This document shows, one piece after another, positions 1-11,068 of a stretch of DNA of 11,068 nt. Source of the stretch: Planctomycetota bacterium (GTDB lineage: Bacteria > Planctomycetota > Phycisphaerae > Sedimentisphaerales > Anaerobacaceae); contig JAGLTN010000121.1 of assembly GCA_023135255.1 (NCBI GenBank), positions 1 through 11,068 on the forward strand, in the 5' to 3' direction. The notes under the pieces were generated by a model. That model was not told the origin of the DNA, did not search any database, and saw only the letters and a program-made list of their open reading frames with translations. Position 1 is the stretch's first letter. Every line of letters starts with the position of its first letter. The position numbers and the translations under genes are program-made.

Positions 1-434
1 TATCAGCTCTTAAAGCAAAATCTCAAGAAGCGATAGCACAAGAAAAGACCCGTTCATCTGAAAAAGAAAATGATCATATTGCAACTATAAGACAGTTACG
101 TGCTGATGCGGAAGAAAATATCGTTAAGCTTAAAACCGAATCCACAGCAAAAGAGAAGGGCTATGAGAGGCGTATATCTCAGGTTGAGGCACAAGCACAA
201 GCGGCAATAGCACAGGAACAAGCGAAAGCTGACGGAGCTATATCGGCTCTTAAAGCACAAGCTATAAAAAGATCAAGGGCTTACGAAGAGGCGATAGCCA
301 AAGCCTCGGAAACCCTAAAAGCCGAAAGCGAATCCCGACTGCATGCCCAGGCACAGAAAGTTGTTGAAGTTGAAGCTAAGTTAAAAACCAGGGCTGGTGA
401 ATATATATCAGCTCTTAAAGCAAAATCTCAAGAA
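1..434 (+). repeat. Internal repeats in the coiled-coil gene
   Basis: The 29 bases at 1-29 recur without a mismatch at 406-434. A diverged copy begins at 241 (reading ISALKAQA instead of ISALKAKS). Offsets of 240 and 405 bp are multiples of three, so the repeats keep frame. The exact 29-bp identity between the outer copies suggests a fairly recent duplication or gene conversion. Confidence 0.85.
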
Positions 435-779
435 AAATTAAAAACTCAGACTAAAGAGATATCAAAAATCAAGGCAGAATTGGGACTAAAGATGGTGAGA
501 ATGAAGGTAGATGCCAACGATATGATAGCTAAGGAGCAAATTAAAATAAAAGAACTCGAGAAGCAGATAGGCAAACTCAGAGGCAAAAGCAACAGAGGTA
601 TTGCTGCGATTAAATCCGAATCTGACCGGGAGAAATTGGTTAGCAGTAAAATTATAACCACAGCCACATCTAAAACCGAGGAGTCAGCGGCTAAGATCAA
701 AAAGTTTGCAAAAAAGCTTAGCGGCTATACGAAAACTGAAGTCTTAGAAAATTCGTCTATGACTTCCAACAAACCGTAA
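1..779 (+). CDS. Coiled-coil protein, 3' part only
   Basis: The frame is open from the left edge (first whole codon at 3) to TAA at 777-779, about 258 codons, so the start lies outside the window. Nearly every residue suits a long helix: Ala, Glu, Lys, Gln and Ser dominate, there is no Trp or Cys, Pro appears only as the last residue, and no membrane segment is visible. The peptide I-S-A-L-K-A recurs three times, 80 and 55 residues apart, showing growth by internal duplication. It reads as a rod-like coiled coil. The last 23 bp overlap the end of the convergent gene at 757-1293. I cannot assign a function. Its position beside the chaperone/secretin operon makes a structural role in that system possible but unproven. 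Coding is near certain, identity is unknown. Confidence 0.8.
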   Translation, partial: SALKAKSQEAIAQEKTRSSEKENDHIATIRQLRADAEENIVKLKTESTAKEKGYERRISQVEAQAQAAIAQEQAKADGAISALKAQAIKRSRAYEEAIAKASETLKAESESRLHAQAQKVVEVEAKLKTRAGEYISALKAKSQEKLKTQTKEISKIKAELGLKMVRMKVDANDMIAKEQIKIKELEKQIGKLRGKSNRGIAAIKSESDREKLVSSKIITTATSKTEESAAKIKKFAKKLSGYTKTEVLENSSMTSNKP

Positions 780-1293
780 GGGTTTGGGTAGCATTGTACT
801 GACCTGAATTCTCAGGGCGTATTTTTTTTATTGAGGCTCTGACTGACAAAGTAACCTCGACAGCCCCATCGGCAGGAATATGTACTATGTTTGTGCCTTT
901 ATTGAGAAACGTATCAAAGGAACACCATGCGGTTGGTCTGCTGCCCGTCTGCTTTGCTGCGAAACCATCATATTTCAACTTATATCTGGTCAGAAGTGTA
1001 TGTGGACCAAATGACAGTTCCGCAGTATTGCTATTATCTGCCGTGATGGTTACATCGCCATTAGTATAGAGCGTAAGGATAGTTTCACCGATGGCATGTT
1101 TGTTTTTAGCAGTCAGGCTACCAAGATCAATCCCCGGAAAAGATGGTTCCGACCACTCAACAATATTCGCGACAGTGCATGATATTTTACATGCGGCGGC
1201 GTCCGGTGGCGGAATTGCCGAGACCAAACCAGGCATACATAACAAAAGATATGCTACCAGCAATACTATTGACAATCTGCCGCTTTTCATCAT
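757..1293 (-). CDS. Exported beta-rich protein, putative fibre subunit (paralogue 1)
   Basis: This 178-residue protein begins with a clear signal peptide: Lys/Arg near the start, a hydrophobic run at 8-24, and probable cleavage after VSA at 24-26. The rest alternates hydrophobic and polar residues as in a beta sandwich. It shares blocks with the proteins at 1580-2179 and 5220-5726: IVEW...FPGIDL (44-57), a strand reading LTLYTNGD (73-80), LLTRYKLKYD (100-109), GAVEVTLSVRAS (143-154) and the terminal YNATQTLTVCW (166-176). Cysteines at 35, 39, 124 and 175 could form disulfides. It is transcribed away from the secretin operon. The general plan resembles DUF4402 or spore-coat-U pilin-like domains, but I cannot confirm membership. 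Its mature form is roughly charge-balanced, unlike its two acidic relatives. No good Shine-Dalgarno precedes the ATG. Confidence 0.82.
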   Translation of the reverse strand: MMKSGRLSIVLLVAYLLLCMPGLVSAIPPPDAAACKISCTVANIVEWSEPSFPGIDLGSLTAKNKHAIGETILTLYTNGDVTITADNSNTAELSFGPHTLLTRYKLKYDGFAAKQTGSRPTAWCSFDTFLNKGTNIVHIPADGAVEVTLSVRASIKKIRPENSGQYNATQTLTVCWKS

Positions 1294-1579: not shown

Positions 1580-2179
1580 ATGAATAGTTTAACTAAATTA
1601 CTACTGTTAAGTGCAATTTGCATTGCAGTAATTACTTTTACTGTAGAATTAGCATTGGCTGCAGATCCAGGAGCTAAAGAGGCCACATGTGCTATAACTG
1701 TAACTGTTGACACAATTATCGAGTGGGACGGAGATTTTCCCGCTATCGACCTTGATTCGCAGGAATCTACACTTGATTCACAGGGCGATAGTCCTGAGGG
1801 CACCTCGACGTTTACGTTGTGGACAAACTGTAATCTAACTCTGAGTTCCGACCAGACAGCTCTATCTCAGCTTTATCATAGCAGAGATGGTGGAGCTAAT
1901 GAAGATACGCTTGTAACAAAGTATAAGATATCAACTGATGAAGCCGGAGTTACCGCTACAGGTGCCACTGCTGCAGCTGTAACTGCCAGTAGTTCGGATA
2001 CCTATACAGTTCATAGTAGTTTTCTGTCCACGGCATTAGCTATAACTCATTTCAATACCGATGGTGCTGTAGAGATTACACTGGAAGTCGAAGCAACCAA
2101 CGATTCTGACAATGTCGCCGACTCTGGTGCTTATGAAGCCACACAAACAATTACCACAGCCTGGGTGAGTGACAATTAA
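1580..2179 (+). CDS. Exported acidic beta-rich protein, putative major subunit (paralogue 2)
   Basis: This 199-residue protein has a signal peptide (hydrophobic 6-27, likely cleavage after LALA at 25-28). The mature part is strongly acidic: by my count about 28 Asp/Glu against 4 Lys/Arg. It is rich in Thr, Ser and Ala, as extracellular beta proteins often are. Blocks shared with the other two family members are IIEWDGDFPAIDLDS (46-60), STFTLWTNC (76-84), DTLVTKYKIS (109-118), GAVEITLEVEA (162-172) and YEATQTITTAW (185-195). Cys37 and Cys84 could form one disulfide. ACGGA at 1568-1572 is a weak ribosome binding site 7 nt before the ATG. It is the first gene of the operon and is followed by an 81-nt gap, the only sizeable one in the operon. 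A pilin- or fimbrillin-like structural role is inferred from export, fold pattern and the neighbouring chaperone and secretin. Confidence 0.85.
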   Translation: MNSLTKLLLLSAICIAVITFTVELALAADPGAKEATCAITVTVDTIIEWDGDFPAIDLDSQESTLDSQGDSPEGTSTFTLWTNCNLTLSSDQTALSQLYHSRDGGANEDTLVTKYKISTDEAGVTATGATAAAVTASSSDTYTVHSSFLSTALAITHFNTDGAVEITLEVEATNDSDNVADSGAYEATQTITTAWVSDN

Positions 2180-2260
2180 CCAAGCTAATATTTAATCTGA
2201 TCAGGAGCTTAAAATTAATTAAGTGATATCAAAAAATCCACTTAGATAAAGGAAAAGATT

Positions 2261-3577
2261 ATGAAAAGGAATTTAACTATATCTAACCGAATTGGAGCAG
2301 GGTTAATAGCCTTGTTCTTTTTTATTTTACAGAATGTCACTTTTGCCGGGTTAGCGGTCAGCCCACTGCAACAGTGGGTCGAGGTCAAACCCGGCAGAAA
2401 AGCTACATTTTTTATTACGCTAACCAACAACAAGCGAAGTGAACAGACTCAACCCTGTCCAATCAGAGTGGACGTACTGGATTTCACAGTTTCTGATGAT
2501 GGACAGCTTTCCTTTGGGCCGGAACATAAACACTCTCGATCCGCTGTTGATTGGATTAGCTTTGAAGAGAATGAATTTGTTCTTGAGCCGGGCGAATCCA
2601 GGAAACTGAAAGCAACGGTAGTAGCCCCCCCAAATGCCGATGGTGATTACTGGGCGGCAGCCATGATAGAATTGGGTAAACACAAAGACAGCGAAAAAGG
2701 AGTACAGGTTAAGTTTAGAACAGCCTCCGGTATATTCATACACGTGGCCCGAAGAAACTATATCGAACGTGGAAGCGTTATCGAGGCAAATGTAAACGTA
2801 CCCGAGTTTGATACGACCGATAATCTTACTGAAAAAAACGCGTCAGAGACGGCTTCTGAGGAAATCAAGAAAAATCAGGTATTGGAAGTTAACGCGGAAT
2901 TGAAAAATGATGGATTGGTATCATTTCTGGCAAGAGGAAAAGCTTATCTTTATTCTGATGGCTGGCGTAGAGTAGCTACTATTCCATTGCATGCAGGCCG
3001 AAGACGGGTGTTACCAGGCGACAGTCGCTGGTTTACGGGCGTAATAGCACAGCCATTACCGGCTGGACAATATAAGCTCCGAACATTTTTTGCTTCTGAC
3101 TCGAAGTACAGGCGTAAGATGACCAGAGATATTGAGCTTTCGATAAATGAGAACCTGGCGGGTGTATGGGCGGAGAACTTTGTAAACGACGACAAGCAGA
3201 CACTTGAGATTAAACCCCAGCAGATCGAATTAAAATTAAATCCCGGGCGTTTGACCGCCATGAGATTTCAGGTTGCTAATCAGAGTCTAAGCACCGTCGT
3301 TACTAATTGCAGGGTTCAAGGCAAAGAATCACAGAACGATTGGCTTGAACTGAAGACACCTGATTTTACGCTTGCTCCAAATAGTCAGCGTTGCACAACC
3401 TGCCTGGTCAGGATACCTTCAGGAGTTCTACCCGGAAAATACAACTGGACCATTCATGTTGAAACGGAGCGGTCGGGTTTAACTACTCAAAAGCAAAACA
3501 ATGTTGAACAGCACAAAATTTCTGTTTGTGTTGTGATAGATGAGAATGTACCCGTTTTTGCAAGCAGGCAGGAATAA
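2261..3577 (+). CDS. Periplasmic Ig-like protein, putative subunit chaperone
   Basis: This 438-residue protein has a signal peptide (hydrophobic 11-29, cleavage near FAG at 28-30) and no other membrane segment. Residues 31-165 form an Ig-like unit: a VSP start, WVEVKPGRKATFFITLTNN (39-57), then WISFEENEFVLEPGESRKL (98-116) and VVAPPNADGDYWAAAMIEL (120-138). This pattern of strand, N-N turn, 'LEPGES' and 'PP...Y' is shared by PapD-like chaperones, DUF916-type proteins and other Ig-like periplasmic proteins. A middle region (about 205-295) and a third unit (about 315-425, LKLNPGR... and LAPNSQRC...) look like further beta sandwiches, so it is about twice the length of a classical PapD chaperone. 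It has an AAAGGA ribosome binding site and ends 2 nt before the secretin start. The chaperone role is inferred from fold and context; a structural or anchoring role is the main alternative. Confidence 0.72.
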   Translation: MKRNLTISNRIGAGLIALFFFILQNVTFAGLAVSPLQQWVEVKPGRKATFFITLTNNKRSEQTQPCPIRVDVLDFTVSDDGQLSFGPEHKHSRSAVDWISFEENEFVLEPGESRKLKATVVAPPNADGDYWAAAMIELGKHKDSEKGVQVKFRTASGIFIHVARRNYIERGSVIEANVNVPEFDTTDNLTEKNASETASEEIKKNQVLEVNAELKNDGLVSFLARGKAYLYSDGWRRVATIPLHAGRRRVLPGDSRWFTGVIAQPLPAGQYKLRTFFASDSKYRRKMTRDIELSINENLAGVWAENFVNDDKQTLEIKPQQIELKLNPGRLTAMRFQVANQSLSTVVTNCRVQGKESQNDWLELKTPDFTLAPNSQRCTTCLVRIPSGVLPGKYNWTIHVETERSGLTTQKQNNVEQHKISVCVVIDENVPVFASRQE

Positions 3578-3579
3578 CT

Positions 3580-5223
3580 ATGATATTTTTAATCAAAAAA
3601 AAGCAGCGTAAAACCACAGTGGTGATATTATTGGCACTGTTGAGCGGAATATTTGTCCATATTGCCGCCGCCGGTGAATTTGACGTCAGCGATTCTGATA
3701 TTAACGAAATTGTAATGGTCAATAACGTGTGGGTCGATGTACCACTTGGTCAGATTCTTCGCGATATATCGATTGAGACCGGCGTCATCATAGCTACGTG
3801 TCCCCATATGCCCGACCCTCTCATTTCTCTCGACGCAGGTATCGGCAAACCGTTAAAAGAGTGTATTAGTGAACTTGTTGCCGGACAGGGACTGTTCATT
3901 TATCAAAGAAGTAAAAAATTCTATCTTATCAGTTGTGGCGATCCAACATGCCCCAGTGCCTTGGAGACAACAACCTCTAAACGGCTTTACCTGAAATACA
4001 TAACAGCAAAGCATCTTAAGGGCTCTCTGCCAAAATTTTCTCAGAAGTATGTAACCAGCGGAGAAAGAGATAACGAAATTTTAATCTACGCACTGCCGGA
4101 TATTACAAAACATATTATGGACATTATTCACAAGTTGGATGTTCCAAGAGAGCAGGTGATGCTGGAGGTGCTTGTTGTAGACCTCTGGGAGGACACCAGT
4201 GACGAATTAGGATTGGACTGGTCGTATTCAGGCCCGCATACCTCATTCAGCATGGCAGGCGGCACCGCAGGATTTACAGGTTTAGCGAGTTACGCAAGCG
4301 TGGCAGCGAGCAATTTAACCGGATTGAGTTTGACTCTTCGCGCATTGGTTGCTGAGAAGCGAGCCAGTATAAGGTCCCGACCAAGAGTAGCTACCCTTAA
4401 CGGTGAAAAAGCTACGATAGATATATCATTGGAGGAGTATTTCACGATAGCTACGGACATTTACGGTTCTTCTTTGCGTACTGAGCTTGAGGTAATTAAA
4501 TCCGGTGTGCTGCTGGAAATGACACCACATATTGGCGATGATGGTTATATTACTGTTGATGTTCTTACCGAAGTGAGCGATGTGGCATCAAGGCGGAATT
4601 CGTCGGGTAACAACAGCATTTCCGGTGCTGATCTTCCTGTAATCCGTCGTCGTAAAGCTGACACTCGTGTCAGGGTAAAGGAAGGTGACGCAATTGTCAT
4701 AGGAGGGCTTATCGAATCTCAGGAAACCACCAATCACAAAAGGGTTCCTCTACTTAGCTCAATTCCTCTTATGGGTGGTCTTTTCAAAAGTAAAGAAGAT
4801 GCTACGGTGAAAAAGGAAGTAGTGATTTTTATTATCCCAAGACTGATGAATGAAGGAGAAATCGCCCTTTCCGACCGCCATGAGATGATAGATGAAGTAG
4901 AGGAAGTGGAAAAGCTGCGTGATGTAGCTACCCTGTTCGATGTGCGACACAAATATGATCAAAAAACAGATAGCAATGACCAGGAGATTCAGTATCTAAA
5001 GGAAGCGAAAAATTTGCTTGGAGCACAGGATCAGTCACATACCACTTCGCACAAAACTGATAGCGCAGCTGTGACTTATCCTGACAATATAGCTCAGGAA
5101 CGCAAGGCACTACAAGAGGTGATCGCCCTGCTCGATATTAAAAACGAACAGATGCGTCCCGTGATTGCCGAACGAAAGAAAAACAAAAAGTATGAAGCTT
5201 CATACGGAGTTATTAGTAAATGA
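3580..5223 (+). CDS. Outer-membrane secretin (GspD/PilQ superfamily)
   Basis: This is a 547-residue protein. A signal peptide (1-31, hydrophobic 12-30) precedes an N0/STN-like domain (about 44-120, VDVPLGQILRDIS at 52-64). An N1-like KH domain follows (about 135-190, LKYITAKHLKGSLP, then IIHKLDVPREQV at 182-193). The secretin core spans about 194-425, with SRPRVATLNGEKATIDIS (266-283) and the family signature VPLLSSIPLMGGLF (389-402) ending in VVIFIIPRLM. Such proteins form multimeric gated channels in the outer membrane for type II/III secretion, type IV pili or filamentous phage. With only one N1-type module it is shorter than GspD. A hydrophilic tail (430-547) carries three similar helical segments. 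Cysteines 74, 95, 119 and 124 lie in the N0 region. AGGA at 3570-3573 serves as ribosome binding site, and the stop overlaps the next ATG by 4 bp. No secretion ATPase accompanies it here. Confidence 0.95.
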   Translation: MIFLIKKKQRKTTVVILLALLSGIFVHIAAAGEFDVSDSDINEIVMVNNVWVDVPLGQILRDISIETGVIIATCPHMPDPLISLDAGIGKPLKECISELVAGQGLFIYQRSKKFYLISCGDPTCPSALETTTSKRLYLKYITAKHLKGSLPKFSQKYVTSGERDNEILIYALPDITKHIMDIIHKLDVPREQVMLEVLVVDLWEDTSDELGLDWSYSGPHTSFSMAGGTAGFTGLASYASVAASNLTGLSLTLRALVAEKRASIRSRPRVATLNGEKATIDISLEEYFTIATDIYGSSLRTELEVIKSGVLLEMTPHIGDDGYITVDVLTEVSDVASRRNSSGNNSISGADLPVIRRRKADTRVRVKEGDAIVIGGLIESQETTNHKRVPLLSSIPLMGGLFKSKEDATVKKEVVIFIIPRLMNEGEIALSDRHEMIDEVEEVEKLRDVATLFDVRHKYDQKTDSNDQEIQYLKEAKNLLGAQDQSHTTSHKTDSAAVTYPDNIAQERKALQEVIALLDIKNEQMRPVIAERKKNKKYEASYGVISK

Positions 5224-5726
5224 GATGCATCATAAACTATATTGTAATTGTGACATTGGCTCTGATTTTTCTGCCAGTCCTTATGGGTGCAGAGATGTAT
5301 TGGGTTTCCGAAGATTTTGATTCGATTTCACTGCCGAATATCACCAGCCAGACTCAACCATGTGAAGACAGTGCTACTATCACTTTGTATACAAGTGGAG
5401 ATGCACAAATATCCGCTGAGAATACCCCAAGTGGGCAAGCAGAGTTATCTTGTGTAACTGATACACTTGTTACAGAGTACAAGCTGACATTCGACAGCGT
5501 GGGCGGCACAACCGGCGTTGGCACAGGTGAGGGTGGGGGCAGTGAGTGGCAGTTATACGATGTCTTCCTGACAACGGGTACCGAAGGAGATGTGACACAC
5601 ATACCTGATGACAATGATGTGGATGTAACGCTTTGGGTCAGAGCAAGCAATCGCAACGATGAGGTAGCTGATGCGGACGACTATATCGCAACACAAACTC
5701 TTACAGTTTCCTGGGTTGGGCCATGA
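5220..5726 (+). CDS. Exported acidic beta-rich protein, putative minor subunit (paralogue 3)
   Basis: This 168-residue protein overlaps the secretin gene (ATGA at 5220) and the following gene (ATGA at 5723). Its signal peptide is hydrophobic from 5 to 22, with cleavage probably after MGA at 22-24. The mature part is very acidic (about 26 Asp/Glu to 3 Lys/Arg by my count). It lacks the first strand block of its relatives, starting instead near YWVSEDFDSISLP. It keeps ATITLYTSGDA (52-62), DTLVTEYKLTFD (81-92), a Gly-rich loop (95-107), VDVTLWVRAS (134-143) and the C-terminal YIATQTLTVSW (155-165). Cys48 and Cys78 could pair. The shorter N-terminus and a place between the secretin and the membrane protein suit a tip, base or adaptor subunit more than the bulk subunit; this is inference. 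Confidence 0.82.
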   Translation: MRCIINYIVIVTLALIFLPVLMGAEMYWVSEDFDSISLPNITSQTQPCEDSATITLYTSGDAQISAENTPSGQAELSCVTDTLVTEYKLTFDSVGGTTGVGTGEGGGSEWQLYDVFLTTGTEGDVTHIPDDNDVDVTLWVRASNRNDEVADADDYIATQTLTVSWVGP

Positions 5727-6283
5727 TAAAAACAGATACTGACAAAATGGTTTTGGAAGAAGAACAACAGATTTTATCTGTTGAAGAATCGGCTTTCGAC
5801 TTGCTGATGTCTGAAATTACCGCCGAAAAAGATGAAGAACAGGATTTGGATCTGGGGCAAATTGTTCACAATAGCGATATCCTTTTGGGAATTATAACTG
5901 AACAGGTCAGATCGAAACGCATTTGGCAAATTGCAGTTGCATGTTTAATGATATTTGTTGTTATAATTTCTTTTATTTGCCTCGGCCTGTATATGGAGCG
6001 TAAAAATCATATCGAAAGATTTAGCCAGGCACAAGCAAACGTCCAGAAAGCAAGTAATGATTTTTCGCAAATCAGCCAAAAAGCAAAAACTCTTGAAAAG
6101 CAGTTGGCCAATTCTGATAAAGAACTTGAGCATGCTCAGAGCCAGCTTAGTAACTCAAACTCACAAGTAGAAAAGCTGCAAAACCAACTGGCTGATACCA
6201 GCCAACGCCTTAAAGCATTGCAAAACCGTAATGTCGAGGCAGTAAAGCGACTTAATGAACGACTCCAAAAACTCTCTGATTGA
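5723..6283 (+). CDS. Single-pass membrane protein with long coiled coil
   Basis: This 186-residue protein has no signal peptide. An acidic N-terminal part (1-62, rich in Glu and Asp) leads to Arg-Ser-Lys-Arg at 63-66 and one membrane segment at about 68-90. A heptad-like helix rich in Gln, Ser, Lys and Leu follows from about 95 to 183 (LEKQLANSDKELEHAQSQL and similar). Positive charges before the segment favour a cytoplasmic N-terminus and a periplasmic coiled coil. It overlaps the preceding gene by ATGA and is the last gene of the operon. The layout (short cytoplasmic part, one membrane span, periplasmic coiled coil) would suit an inner-membrane partner reaching toward the secretin, as GspC-type or TolA-like proteins do. 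There is no sequence evidence of homology to either. Confidence 0.8.
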   Translation: MIKTDTDKMVLEEEQQILSVEESAFDLLMSEITAEKDEEQDLDLGQIVHNSDILLGIITEQVRSKRIWQIAVACLMIFVVIISFICLGLYMERKNHIERFSQAQANVQKASNDFSQISQKAKTLEKQLANSDKELEHAQSQLSNSNSQVEKLQNQLADTSQRLKALQNRNVEAVKRLNERLQKLSD

Positions 6284-6416: not shown

Positions 6417-6495
6417 ATTGCAATCACTCGTCAAAAAGAAACTGCATTATTTAATAAGTTATAAACAATTTAGTATGGATTTAACGTATTGCAAT
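6417..6495. repeat. Two copies of the palindrome ATTGCAAT upstream of ccmE
   Basis: The perfect 8-bp palindrome ATTGCAAT occurs at 6417-6424 and 6488-6495. The core TTGCAA appears again at 6526-6531. The second copy overlaps the -35 box of the predicted ccm promoter and the third lies next to the predicted transcript start, which is where an operator would sit. The binding protein is unknown, and chance in AT-rich DNA cannot be excluded. Confidence 0.35.
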
Positions 6496-6517
6496 CCGGA
6501 CGCGTTTCGCATATAAA
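6489..6517 (+). promoter_or_regulatory. Sigma70-type promoter of the ccm operon
   Basis: TTGCAA (6489-6494) and TATAAA (6512-6517) are separated by 17 bp. The predicted start is near 6524, giving a leader of about 34 nt before the ATG of ccmE. Confidence 0.5.
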
Positions 6518-6557
6518 ATGTAAGGTTGCAAAAGTATTATGGATTTGGTTGGTTAAT

Positions 6558-6962
6558 ATGAATAATAAAAGAAAAATAATAAAGGCTGTTATTGCTGTGA
6601 TAATCATCGGGGCAGGTGGATTGTACCTTGTTGGTCAGGCGGCAAAATCTTCGTGGGCCTATTACTGCGATGTTGATGAGTTTTTACAGGAGCCTAAGAT
6701 CGGTTCGGTTGTAAGGCTTGCGGGTGTTGTTAAAGATGGGTCAATCGTTAAAGAGTCGGCTGGGGACAAAATGGAGTTTGTGCTTTTGGGACAAAAGAAT
6801 TTTATTGAAGTTAAGTATGATGGAATAGTTGCTAAGAATTTCCAGGCCGGTAGAGAGGTTGTTGTCGAAGGTGTAATGGGAGCCGATGGTAAGTTTAAGG
6901 CTAAAGAAATCATTACAAGGTGTGAGTCGAAATATAAAACTAAATTGAAGAAAAGTCTTTAA
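6558..6962 (+). CDS. ccmE: CcmE haem chaperone, variant with Cys-x-x-x-Tyr motif
   Basis: CcmE holds haem covalently in the periplasm and hands it to the cytochrome c ligation machinery. This 134-residue protein has one N-terminal membrane anchor (7-26) followed by an OB-fold domain: VVRLAGVVKDGSI (51-63), FVLLGQKNFIEVKYDG (74-89) and VVVEGVMGADGKFKAKEI (101-118). The classical haem-binding His-x-x-x-Tyr is replaced by Cys122-Glu-Ser-Lys-Tyr126, as in the variant System I reported from archaea and some anaerobes such as Desulfovibrio. The ATG at 6558 is preferred; the frame opens earlier at a TTG (6489), but that lies in the predicted promoter and would add a non-conserved stretch before the anchor. 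The ribosome binding site is weak. The gene stops 8 nt before ccmA, which confirms identity by context. Confidence 0.88.
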   Translation: MNNKRKIIKAVIAVIIIGAGGLYLVGQAAKSSWAYYCDVDEFLQEPKIGSVVRLAGVVKDGSIVKESAGDKMEFVLLGQKNFIEVKYDGIVAKNFQAGREVVVEGVMGADGKFKAKEIITRCESKYKTKLKKSL

Positions 6963-6970
6963 GGCCTGCG

Positions 6971-7711
6971 ATGGCAGAGGAAAATCTGAAAAAAAATAAC
7001 AGTGCAGCTTTGGAAGCGGAAAACATCAGTAAGAGTTTCGCCAATAAGGATGTGCTTAGGGGGATCAGCTTTAAAGTTGAAGCTGGGGATGGGGTTTGCG
7101 TGTACGGCAGTAATGCATCAGGCAAGACTACTTTGCTTCGGATATTGGCGGGGATTTTGCAGGCGAAAGATGGGACAGTGAAAATTGGAGGATGGGATAT
7201 AAAAAAATCGGCGGAGAAAGCGTTGCCGATGATCGGGGTTATTTCACATGGGACGATGACATATCCACAGTTAACGGTTGAGGAAAATTTAAAGTTCTTT
7301 GCGGACATTTATAATTTGAGTGACAAAAAAGAGCGAGTAACAGAGGTGATCGATGAGATGAATCTGTCTAAGTTTCGCTATGATGTCGTAAGCAGCCTGT
7401 CACGAGGGACAAGACAGAGGCTTGCAATCGGACGGGCTGTTTTGCACAGACCTAAAGTAATACTGGCGGATGAGCCTTTCACAGGGCTTGATAGTAAATC
7501 GAAGCAAAAGTTTATTGATATTATTAATAAATTCAAAAAAGCTGGAGGGGCTTTAGTTTTGACAAGTCACCATGTTGAGTTGGCTGGCAAGTGCTGCGAG
7601 AAAATAGTGGTGCTGGACGGCGGAAAATTTGTGGCGGAAGCTAATATTGGCGATGACGATGTCAGGAGATTTTGTGAAGATCATTCGACGAGTACAAAGG
7701 AAAAGATTTGA
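6971..7711 (+). CDS. ccmA: CcmA, ATPase of the CcmABCD haem-release ABC transporter
   Basis: CcmA hydrolyses ATP in the CcmABCD complex to free holo-CcmE. All ABC ATPase motifs are present in 246 residues: Walker A GSNASGKT (46-53), Q-loop region near MTYPQLTVEEN (96-106), signature LSRGTRQR (143-150), Walker B VILADEP (163-169), D-loop GLD (172-174) and switch His200. The signature reads LSRGTRQR rather than LSGGQ, the form usual in CcmA and related exporters. It is about 40 residues longer than E. coli CcmA, with extra length at both ends. AAGG at 6961-6964 is a suitable ribosome binding site 6 nt before the ATG. Its stop overlaps the ccmB start by 4 bp. Taken alone it could be another short ABC ATPase, but the neighbours settle the call. 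Confidence 0.93.
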   Translation: MAEENLKKNNSAALEAENISKSFANKDVLRGISFKVEAGDGVCVYGSNASGKTTLLRILAGILQAKDGTVKIGGWDIKKSAEKALPMIGVISHGTMTYPQLTVEENLKFFADIYNLSDKKERVTEVIDEMNLSKFRYDVVSSLSRGTRQRLAIGRAVLHRPKVILADEPFTGLDSKSKQKFIDIINKFKKAGGALVLTSHHVELAGKCCEKIVVLDGGKFVAEANIGDDDVRRFCEDHSTSTKEKI

Positions 7712-8397
7712 GCAATAGTATAAACATAATCAAAGCTATCTTTGTGAAAGATATTATTAACGAGCTTAGGAGTAAGCAGACTTTTGCTTCGATGGTTGTG
7801 CTTAGTATTATCATTGCGTGGATATTCAGACTTGCGAGCAGCGGGGTCGAATCGGCGATGGCGGCAGCGGTTATTATGGTCTCTGTTGTGTTTTCTTCGA
7901 TACTGTGCTGTGAGAGAAGTTTTGTGGTTGAGCATGATGAGGGGTGCATAGATGGGCTTTTGTCGGCGAGTGCTGACAGGGGGAATATTTATATCGGCAA
8001 GCTGCTTTTTAATGTCACTATGCTTTGTATTTTTGACTGCGTTATGGTGCCTGTGGTTTGTGTGTGTTTTAATTTGACGCCCGCGGGAAATCTGTTGAAG
8101 CTGATTGTTATTCTGCTTCTGGTCAATATCGGGGTATCGGCAGTCGGGACGCTTTTGGGCAGTATTGTGATGAGCATTAAGAGCAGGAGCTCTGTTTTGA
8201 GCATACTTATAATGGCTTTGATAATGCCTATGATGATACCTGCGATATCGGGGTTGCTGATGGTCTTTTCGGCTGGGGCTGACGGCGGGATGTTTTCGGC
8301 TGGGCAAAGCTTTAGTGAAATAGCGGGGATGATGGCTGCTTATGACGCAATATTTGTTACTGTGTGCTGGCTGGTTTTCGGATTTACGGTTGACTAA
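7708..8397 (+). CDS. ccmB: CcmB, membrane subunit of the haem-release ABC transporter
   Basis: CcmB is the permease-like partner of CcmA. This 229-residue protein has about six hydrophobic segments and the family's early motifs: KDIINELRSKQTFASMVV (14-31) and a conserved cytoplasmic loop CERSFVVEHDEGCIDGLL (68-85) followed by GKLLFN. Length agrees with E. coli CcmB (about 220). The start is a TTG at 7708, overlapping the ccmA stop as TTGA. An AAAGGA at 7696-7701 lies 6 nt upstream and supports it, and the first in-frame ATG (7792) would cut off the conserved N-terminal motif. The gene stops 12 nt before ccmC. Confidence 0.9.
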   Translation: MSNSINIIKAIFVKDIINELRSKQTFASMVVLSIIIAWIFRLASSGVESAMAAAVIMVSVVFSSILCCERSFVVEHDEGCIDGLLSASADRGNIYIGKLLFNVTMLCIFDCVMVPVVCVCFNLTPAGNLLKLIVILLLVNIGVSAVGTLLGSIVMSIKSRSSVLSILIMALIMPMMIPAISGLLMVFSAGADGGMFSAGQSFSEIAGMMAAYDAIFVTVCWLVFGFTVD

Positions 8398-8409
8398 GTG
8401 GAGAAATCG

Positions 8410-9027
8410 ATGAGAGTAACAGTTTTAATAATAAGCTTTGTTTTGATGATAGCTTCTGGTGTGATAGCGTTCACTAAAGGCGCAATTGAGCCTGTGGTTC
8501 GCAACATTGTCTATATACATGTGCCTGCGTCTATATGCTCGCTGGTTTGCTTTGGCGGATTGTTCGTTTTTTCAATCATGTATCTTATAAAGAAAAAACC
8601 TGTTTTCGATTATCTTGGGGCTGCATCTGCGGAGGTTGCTTTTGTTTTTGCTACGGTGCTTAATATTACGGGGATGATATTTGCCAAAGCTGAGTGGGGA
8701 CTTTGGTGGACGCCAAGCATGAGGCTTATTAGTTCTGCGATATTGTGGTTTCTGGCGGCGGCTTATTTGATACTGAGATCGAGTTTTAATGAGCAAGGAA
8801 ATAAGGCTAATCTTTGTGCGGTGTTCGGAATAATCGCTTTTGTTGATGTGCCTTTTGTTTATATAAGCGCCAGGCTGATGCGTGACATACACAGACCGAG
8901 CTTTAGCTTTGACAGCAGTTGGCAAAGTGCGGCATTGGGTTTGGCGATAGTGGCGACAATAATGCTGGCGTCGGCGCTTATATGGATGCGGGCGGATATT
9001 GAAAAATTAAATAAGAGATTGAATTGA
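8410..9027 (+). CDS. ccmC: CcmC, haem-handling membrane protein
   Basis: CcmC presents haem to CcmE on the outer face of the inner membrane. This 205-residue protein has six membrane segments (about 4-21, 34-60, 69-90, 106-123, 135-152 and 174-193). It keeps the Trp-rich loop EWGLWWTPSMRL (95-106) and both external histidines expected to ligate haem: His37 in VYIHVPAS and His161 in RDIHRPS. The loop reads WWTPSMR where most relatives have WWxxDxR, so the usual Asp is a Ser. The ATG at 8410 is chosen because GTGGAG (8398-8403) makes a good ribosome binding site 6 nt before it; a GTG at 8398 is possible but lies inside that site. It is shorter than E. coli CcmC (about 245). Confidence 0.92.
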   Translation: MRVTVLIISFVLMIASGVIAFTKGAIEPVVRNIVYIHVPASICSLVCFGGLFVFSIMYLIKKKPVFDYLGAASAEVAFVFATVLNITGMIFAKAEWGLWWTPSMRLISSAILWFLAAAYLILRSSFNEQGNKANLCAVFGIIAFVDVPFVYISARLMRDIHRPSFSFDSSWQSAALGLAIVATIMLASALIWMRADIEKLNKRLN

Positions 9028-9419: not shown

Positions 9420-9473
9420 ACAGGTAATCAAAAAATGGGTTTGAAATAGGTTCATTTAATGGGGGGTTTAAGA

Positions 9474-10103
9474 ATGAAAAGATTTATCACAATTGCAGTT
9501 CTGGTATTTGTTTTTTCATCAGCAGCAAGTGCGACTCTGATGACATGGAACGATGACAACGGAAATTATGGTTATGGTTTTTACGATATAGTAAAAATCT
9601 TCAGCAGCGTTTCGCCTTACAACGATTATACAGTGCGAGCCGGTGAGCTTGACGTCACTTATGGCGGCGTGGACTATATGGGCTACTGTGTTGACGTAAT
9701 GCAGGGTCTTGGCGATTATGATGTAACTGTGTTACTGCCGACATCCGATCCACTTTTGACTGCATCTTATTTGTATGAAACAGAGCATAGCAATGTTTCA
9801 AGCAATGTAGCTGCAGCGGCATTACAAGTTGCGATATGGGAAATTATCAGTGAAAACTACGGCGCATACGGCTATGATGTTACAGATTCGACAAGTAATT
9901 TTTATATCGCAAATAATACAGCTGTCAGCTTAGCAGCTAATAATCTGCTTAACGGGTTGGCTGTTCCTATTGGCTACAGCCCAGCAATAAGCACCAAAGT
10001 ATTAGCAAGCACAGTCGGGCAGGATGTTATGGTTCCGGAGCCTTCAACGATTATTCTTTTGGGACTTGGCGGATTATTCTTTATGAAAAAACGAAAAGCA
10101 TAA
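9474..10103 (+). CDS. PEP-CTERM exported protein with possible thioester pair
   Basis: This 209-residue protein has a signal peptide (hydrophobic 4-19, cleavage near ASA at 18-20) and a C-terminal PEP-CTERM sorting signal: VPEP (187-190), a hydrophobic span (192-203) and a basic end MKKRKA. Such signals are cut by an exosortase and go with an exopolysaccharide-producing, usually biofilm-forming cell. The body has MGYCVDVMQ (69-77) and AALQVAIWEI (115-124). This Cys...Gln-x-A-I-W pattern resembles bacterial thioester domains, in which a Cys and a Gln form an internal bond able to attach covalently to surfaces. Cys72 is the only cysteine. The start at 9474 is chosen over an in-frame ATG at 9459 because the six-G run 9461-9466 makes a ribosome binding site 7 nt before it. 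A strong terminator follows, so the gene is probably monocistronic. Confidence 0.9.
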   Translation: MKRFITIAVLVFVFSSAASATLMTWNDDNGNYGYGFYDIVKIFSSVSPYNDYTVRAGELDVTYGGVDYMGYCVDVMQGLGDYDVTVLLPTSDPLLTASYLYETEHSNVSSNVAAAALQVAIWEIISENYGAYGYDVTDSTSNFYIANNTAVSLAANNLLNGLAVPIGYSPAISTKVLASTVGQDVMVPEPSTIILLGLGGLFFMKKRKA

Positions 10104-10328: not shown

Positions 10329-11068
10329 ATGTGCGAAATAAAAGGTTCCAGCTGGCAGCAGAGATATTCAGCTTCTGAAATATTCACCTTGAGGTGTAAA
10401 ATTCTTGATAAGCCCGGCAAATTAGCAGAATTGTGCCATGTTTTAGGTGAAGCTGATATCAATATCGGACAAATCAGTCAGGTGAGCGTTGAGGGTAATT
10501 ATAAAATAAGAGATATTACGATTTTCTTTTCTGGTAAAGACCTGATAGCTAAATTGCGCAAGCTTGCGGATAAAACCCGTGGTTTTGAAATAATAAAAGT
10601 CACAGATGATATCCTTGAGATGCACAGGCGAGGCTCAATAGAGATGGTAAGCAGAATTCCTATCAAGAGCCTGACGGATATGCGTATGCTTTATACTCCT
10701 GGTGTTGCTTCGGTTTGTAAACAGGTCGAAGCTGATATTGAAAAGGCATGGGAGTATACGGGGATATGTGACAGGGTAGCAATCGTTACTAACGGCACCG
10801 CGGTACTTGGGTTAGGGGACATTGGAGTTTTGCCATCACTTCCTGTTATGGAAGGTAAGGCTGCTATTTTTGCGGAGTTTGTAAACATCAGCGGTGTGCC
10901 TATACTTGTAGATTCGAAAGATCCAGAGGTTATCATCGAAACTGTAATGACAATAGCTAAGGGATTTGGCGCTATTCAGCTTGAAGATATTTCTGCGCCT
11001 GCTTGTTTTGAGATTGAGAACAGGTTAAAAAAGGAGCTGGACATTCCGGTATTTCATGATGACCAGCA
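10329..11068 (+). CDS. Malic enzyme with N-terminal ACT domain, 5' part
   Basis: Malic enzyme oxidatively decarboxylates malate to pyruvate with NAD(P) in the cytoplasm. The visible 246 residues begin with an ACT domain (about 19-95, LRCKILDKPGKLAEL at 21-35), a small-molecule sensor fold found in one bacterial class of this enzyme. The malic enzyme N-terminal domain follows, with the active-site region YTPGVA (122-127), NGTAVLGLGDIG (155-166), the catalytic Lys177 in EGKAA, and metal-binding acids in QLEDISAP (217-224) and HDDQ (243-246). The frame runs off the window before the NAD-binding domain. An in-frame TAG at 10323 limits the start, and the ATG at 10329 is the only one that includes the ACT domain, though its ribosome binding site is poor (AGGAAAG about 12 nt upstream). 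NAD or NADP preference cannot be read here. Confidence 0.93.
   Translation, partial: MCEIKGSSWQQRYSASEIFTLRCKILDKPGKLAELCHVLGEADINIGQISQVSVEGNYKIRDITIFFSGKDLIAKLRKLADKTRGFEIIKVTDDILEMHRRGSIEMVSRIPIKSLTDMRMLYTPGVASVCKQVEADIEKAWEYTGICDRVAIVTNGTAVLGLGDIGVLPSLPVMEGKAAIFAEFVNISGVPILVDSKDPEVIIETVMTIAKGFGAIQLEDISAPACFEIENRLKKELDIPVFHDDQ

Follow-up and report, generated by a model that had tools for sequence, protein, structure and literature searches.

The cassette described here lies in a window of 11,068 nucleotides, the whole stretch of DNA analysed, from the planctomycete contig JAGLTN010000121.1 (assembly GCA_023135255.1, Anaerobacaceae) and encodes three exported subunits (subM, subA and subB), an immunoglobulin (Ig)-like chaperone (chap), a secretin (secr) and a membrane protein with a coiled coil (mcc) (Table 1). 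An earlier note, made from the letters of the DNA, had listed five linked genes at positions 1580-6283; all five open reading frames (ORFs) are confirmed on the plus strand, with the addition of the divergent subM, which that note had overlooked. The intergenic gaps measure 81 bases between subA and chap and 2 bases between chap and secr, and direct reading verifies the ATGA overlaps at 5220 and 5723, by which the start of subB overlaps the end of secr and the start of mcc the end of subB. The subunits, the chaperone and the secretin each carry a single hydrophobic stretch at the N-terminus, and the single hydrophobic stretch of mcc spans residues 64-94.

Table 1. Genes and putative segments of the cassette in window coordinates
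Feature	Position	Strand	Description
subM	757..1293	-	exported subunit, the third, divergently encoded; donor-strand-like segment at the N-terminus
subM residues 33-44	1162..1197	-	putative donor strand; alternation as in subA
subA	1580..2179	+	rod-type subunit, 199 amino acids, signal peptide, pilin-like fold in model
subA residues 35-46	1682..1717	+	putative donor strand; conserved hydrophobic alternation, no strand in monomer model
chap	2261..3577	+	periplasmic chaperone, 438 amino acids, three Ig-like domains, fold WxLIP- and CsuC/CfaA-like
chap residues 145-152	2693..2716	+	putative strand-lending segment; positions 148, 150 and 152 hydrophobic in 88/88 aligned rows
secr	3580..5223	+	secretin, 547 amino acids, with C-terminal extension
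secr residues 255-423	4342..4848	+	secretin domain PF00263, E 6.5e-40
subB	5220..5726	+	168-amino-acid subunit lacking the donor-strand segment; putative tip or initial subunit
mcc	5723..6283	+	186 amino acids, single-span membrane protein with coiled coil; relatives in some loci only

The secretin, whose gene is the sole one in the cassette recognised as encoding an outer-membrane channel, had been called with confidence from the outset, and this is corroborated by its PF00263 domain and by matches to 23 distinct solved sequences, all secretin-type by name, of which the best is protein D of a type II secretion system (T2SS). A PF03958-like domain at residues 135-192 falls below the cut-off. 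The models of GspD, PilQ and SctC match the protein with E values from 7.3e-47 (GspD) to 6.5e-42, all under their curated cut-offs, which leaves it without the name of a known system. In a tree of 21 rows the nine secretins of the family f1 form one group (99/99).

Structure prediction, as proposed in the earlier note, was run for the chaperone and subA as single chains and gives an Ig-like and a pilin-like fold respectively. The chaperone model, built from 88 rows chosen from 120 listed proteins plus window and locus sequences, has WxLIP from Enterococcus faecium among its best fold matches and also resembles CsuC and CfaA, and its alternating V-x-V-x-L/F segment precedes the G1 strand. The nine families listed at E<=1 for the chaperone of the window do not include the chaperone family PF00345 (PapD_N), which was found in none of 13 genomes, which are incomplete assemblies, under a positive Escherichia coli control. 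Against solved structures the chaperone profile matches five glycosidases only, with a best E of 0.017.

The subunits belong to one family. subM is a paralogue of subA (35% identity; 37% for subB in the same comparison), and these three are the only members matched in their own genome, which is 83% complete. The subA model, built from 76 rows chosen from 120 listed proteins plus window and locus sequences, leaves the putative donor strand unpaired in the predicted monomer. Judged by sequence pattern, a donor-strand-like segment is present in 88 and absent in 29 of 117 subunits among the matches listed (120 less two of more than 214 amino acids and one unparsed row), and a second pattern gives 89 with and 29 without among 118 listed subunits; 27 of the 29 strand-less rows enter the column profile of their class. 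Some relatives of subB are longer, the subB-like part forming the end of the protein. The subunit profile has no sequence match among solved structures at E<=1, and DUF4402, the best-supported Pfam family, matched by 3 of 76 subunits at E 0.02, was not adopted.

The gene order recurs in other planctomycete genera and in a distant family, which is where the earlier note had suggested looking for it. A scan of GTDB contigs yields five related loci, all in planctomycete metagenome-assembled genomes. In the family search, where all candidates were scored, the chaperone occurs in 8 of 89 genomes and the subunits in nine, including all eight (Fisher p 1.3e-10, treating related genomes as independent), and none of the 26 subunit matches falls outside the cassette locus and its contigs. 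The ninth genome (G453, whose locus is held by L014) retains the secretin with subB and a subM fragment adjoining it; at 8680-10855 of L014 subA and the chaperone gene are gone, as if deleted or misassembled. Across the phylum, where at most four, eight (subunits) or three first-look candidates were scored per genome and misses are possible, the chaperone is found in 5 of 392 genomes (E<=1e-10) and the subunits in four, all of them chaperone-positive. The secretin gene is next downstream of the chaperone gene in 12/12 genomes whose chaperone match reaches E<=1e-10; for G454 this reading spans a break between contigs (L036 and L013). In f1 the order is the divergent subM followed by subA, chap, secr, subB and in some loci mcc, and in the distant family f18 (L030-L032) it is subA, subB, chap, secr, with two subA-like genes in L032; chaperone identity is 47-66% across genera with conserved order and 29-30% in f18. 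Duplicates were counted once: L034 repeats L015 as its reverse complement, L035 is contained in L016, L013 begins as contig C10 of G454 does, and L014 covers the locus of G453. subM has relatives in the same place in L012, L036, L038 and L040, a short one (ORF of 102 amino acids) in L037, and ones truncated by the contig end in L016, L039 and L015. The earlier note had counted mcc as a component, which is correct for the window, but mcc is not constant among related loci, with relatives in L012 and L013 and, at about 25% identity, in L038 and L040. In L039 (3183-4459) the secretin is split into two ORFs beside an intact-looking chaperone ORF. Since the order recurs in other genera, the cassette is more than a chance arrangement, and it is a real, conserved gene set that probably encodes one machine.

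A wider chaperone profile extends the pairing of chaperone and secretin. At E<=1e-6 it gives 11 rows at ten distinct loci in 8 of 392 genomes, and a secretin adjoins the chaperone-like gene at eight of these loci, namely in the window, G010 (two loci), G098, G080, G362 (contig C137), G305 and G365. The second set of G010 consists of a small subunit-like ORF, a chaperone of 569 amino acids and a secretin of 447. In G305 (contig C101, L075, 6745-11165), from yet another family, two small secreted-looking ORFs, which do not match the subA profile, a chaperone of 392 amino acids and a secretin follow in a row, and in G365 (contig C163, L104, 6141-11007), a genome 99% complete, the secretin is followed by a chaperone-like protein of 560 amino acids with small ORFs on either side. 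No secretin was found on the stretches of the two remaining loci (10.7 and 16 kb): in L072 (G362, contig C14, 6855-9142) two small secreted-looking beta proteins stand beside a shorter chaperone-like protein of 294 amino acids, and in L074 (G130, contig C46, 5587-11582) four small beta proteins and a chaperone-like gene (279 amino acids) are followed by proteins with Ig-like and SpaA/SdrD-like domains, a set that may represent another fibre system.

The earlier note had stressed that the operon has neither usher nor ATPase. The first part is borne out, as the usher family PF00577 has no match in the 12 cassette genomes, the window's own included, with a positive E. coli control. The second holds at the locus but not in the cell: the ATPase family T2SSE has no match on the cassette contigs (7 to 77 kb) of nine fragmented f1 and f18 genomes (G000, G438, G448, G454, G456, G472, G010, G098 and G080), the window's contig (C26) included, and in the single-contig genomes G420 and G419 the nearest match is about 0.19 and 0.09 Mb from the cassette. 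Because the assemblies are 59-93% complete, the absence of usher or motor is not proof.

It is proposed, with moderate confidence, that the cassette is an export and assembly set for donor-strand-linked surface fibres which leave the cell through the secretin. That Ig-like subunits, Ig chaperone and secretin make up one conserved module, as the earlier note supposed, is upheld, and the fibre role that it had suggested is favoured by the evidence of the folds. According to this model subA and subM would be the repeating beads, pilin-like sandwiches each with an N-terminal donor strand, and the chaperone would hold the secreted subunits in the periplasm by lending the segment that precedes its G1 strand. 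subB, which without a donor strand could accept but not donate, would be handed over first as the tip or first subunit; its relatives can form the end of a longer protein, much as a pilin domain does in a tip adhesin. subA and subM would follow, each donating its N-terminal strand to the preceding subunit, and the chain would exit via the secretin standing in for the usher. Folding energy drives assembly in usher pathways and could likewise drive export here, and a motor might not be needed. In lineages that have mcc, this protein may link the secretin with the inner membrane. Computation establishes the gene set, its conservation and co-occurrence, the predicted folds and the strand patterns, and it detected no usher; strand lending and exchange, the formation of fibres, the secretin's role as exit pore and independence from a motor are inferred.

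A broader suggestion, put forward tentatively and with somewhat less than even confidence, is that several lineages of Planctomycetota possess a separate chaperone-secretin pathway, in which donor-strand fibres are assembled without a motor and exit through a secretin ring that has no relation to ushers and probably also serves as their assembly platform. The lack of an usher places the cassette outside the chaperone-usher family and the lack of a motor at the locus places it outside type II and type IV systems, while its parts work like those of chaperone-usher systems. No description of such a system was found in the literature searched, outside which most subscription papers lie. If correct, the usher, thought to define chaperone-assembled pili, would be replaceable by a secretin, so that the exit channel and the chemistry of beads and chaperone would be separable modules. 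A secretin would furthermore work without a dedicated motor, surface fibres in planctomycetes would have a candidate gene set, and a single strand-lending mechanism would link pilus chaperones with the WxLIP proteins of firmicutes.

Several results weigh against the fibre proposal. Profile comparisons by hhalign with seven K-12 chaperones (7.1, reversed 4.9, and 1.3, reversed 3.1, for two profiles) and with fifteen K-12 pilins (18.8, reversed 0.2, with the signal peptide inside the match) are not significant, so the likeness to chaperone-usher proteins is one of fold and pattern and not a demonstrated common origin. In the secretin tree the chaperone-linked secretins group weakly (83/58) with a long-branched secretin of the window's genome (L081) among them, and a common origin of the chaperone-secretin pairs is thus not established. 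T2SSE matches are present in 12/12 cassette genomes, with 13 in the window's own. Finally, at the G362 locus on C137 (L076, 151-16783, a distant family) a chaperone of 580 amino acids and a secretin are followed by an N_methyl/FecR protein, two T2SSE ATPases, further prepilin-like ORFs and one ORF which we take to be GspF-like; this contig has the chaperone at its very start and shows no subunit. An ATPase with pseudopilins beside the operon would have refuted the reading of the earlier note, and this one locus of a distant family partly answers to that description, whereas no T2SSE lies on the f1 and f18 cassette contigs tested. L076 is possibly an ancestral or hybrid setting of the pair.

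The last two results keep alive an alternative that is unlikely, though it deserves to be taken seriously, namely that a machine like the T2SS or type IV pilus (T4P), with its motor and pseudopilins encoded elsewhere, has the secretin as its outer-membrane channel, the beta proteins being its substrates and the Ig protein a periplasmic carrier. Set against it are the T2SSE-free cassette contigs and the distances in G420 and G419, and no prepilin was detected in the window, the 13 f1 and f18 loci or L073 by a pattern of our own which in L076 caught only three of the four prepilin-like starts. The window's genome has, moreover, five other secretin matches, 24-33% identical, two of them on contigs with T2SSE, and subunit classes with and without a donor strand would be unexpected for mere substrates.

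A rather improbable alternative is that the cassette is a diderm counterpart of WxL/WxLIP clusters, in which Ig protein and subunits remain joined in a complex at the surface without polymerising, and the secretin serves solely for their release. This would suit the WxLIP match of the chaperone model and the match, above cut-off, of a relative in L033 to PF06030, which together with PF11797 makes up the WxLIP fold, and in one study WxLIP is predicted to supply a strand that closes a gap in the sandwich of WxL (PMC10599100). The window's chaperone, however, has its hydrophobic stretch at the N-terminus and no C-terminal membrane stretch, no WxL family is found among 25 of the 30 Pfam families listed for 76 subunits, and a donor-strand segment in subA and subM with none in subB would suit a polymer. 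That the genes are unrelated neighbours or a lineage-specific accident with no common function is hardly credible, since for all the small number of genomes concerned the order is kept across genera, subunits and chaperone persist in a distant family at about 30% identity, co-occurrence is nearly complete and the chaperone lies beside a secretin in 8/10 loci.

Other features of the window are noted for completeness. A hairpin in the RNA between subA and chap, considered as a device for differential expression, was folded in seven loci and rejected as not conserved because a strong z is seen in two of them (-3.23 in L015 and -2.73 in L037; -1.45 to -0.14 in the other five). Scans for promoters (16 versus 12.1 in shuffles, standard deviation 3.1) and terminators (5 versus 4.4, standard deviation 2.1) stay within about 1.3 standard deviations of expectation, and generic coiled-coil Pfam matches of mcc were set aside. 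A long coiled-coil-like ORF enters from the left edge (3-779, plus strand), with a similar one in the same place in L012, and ORFs that are presumably flagellin-like and FliS-like adjoin subM in L036, L038 and L040. Downstream on the plus strand are cytochrome c maturation genes like CcmE, CcmA, CcmB and CcmC (6489-9027), with a GC skew of about 0.26-0.38 compared to about 0.03-0.14 in the cassette, a PEP-CTERM protein (9459-10103), which adds a second type of exported surface protein to the neighbourhood of the cassette, and an open ORF that we take to resemble an ACT-domain malic enzyme (10329-11066).

Among known systems, TasA/TapA and archaeal donor-strand fibres achieve strand exchange without an usher, and we know of no secretin in them; their likeness to the cassette is a weak fold match, the TasA fibre ranking tenth for the subA model. 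With the secretins of T2SS and T4P (GspD, PilQ, HofQ) the cassette secretin shares the canonical domain, but it stays under their curated cut-offs and no T2SSE accompanies it on the f1 and f18 contigs tested. WxL/WxLIP clusters differ in comprising firmicute surface proteins, with a WxLIP that has the C-terminal membrane helix missing from the cassette chaperone and with WxL families not seen among the Pfam families shown for the cassette subunits; to our knowledge they have no secretin. In the available part of a review of appendages, secretins are mentioned twice, both times concerning a type IV pilus (PMC7616799). The closest parallel is with chaperone-usher pili (type 1, P, CFA/I and archaic Csu). 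The cassette differs from these in its genomes having no usher or PapD_N match, in the secretin as channel, in the third Ig domain of the chaperone and in the lack of a significant sequence relation, but it shares with them the pilin-like fold, the N-terminal alternating donor-strand-like segment, two subunit classes of which one is strand-less and tip-type, the absence of a motor at the locus, and an Ig chaperone with an alternating segment before G1.
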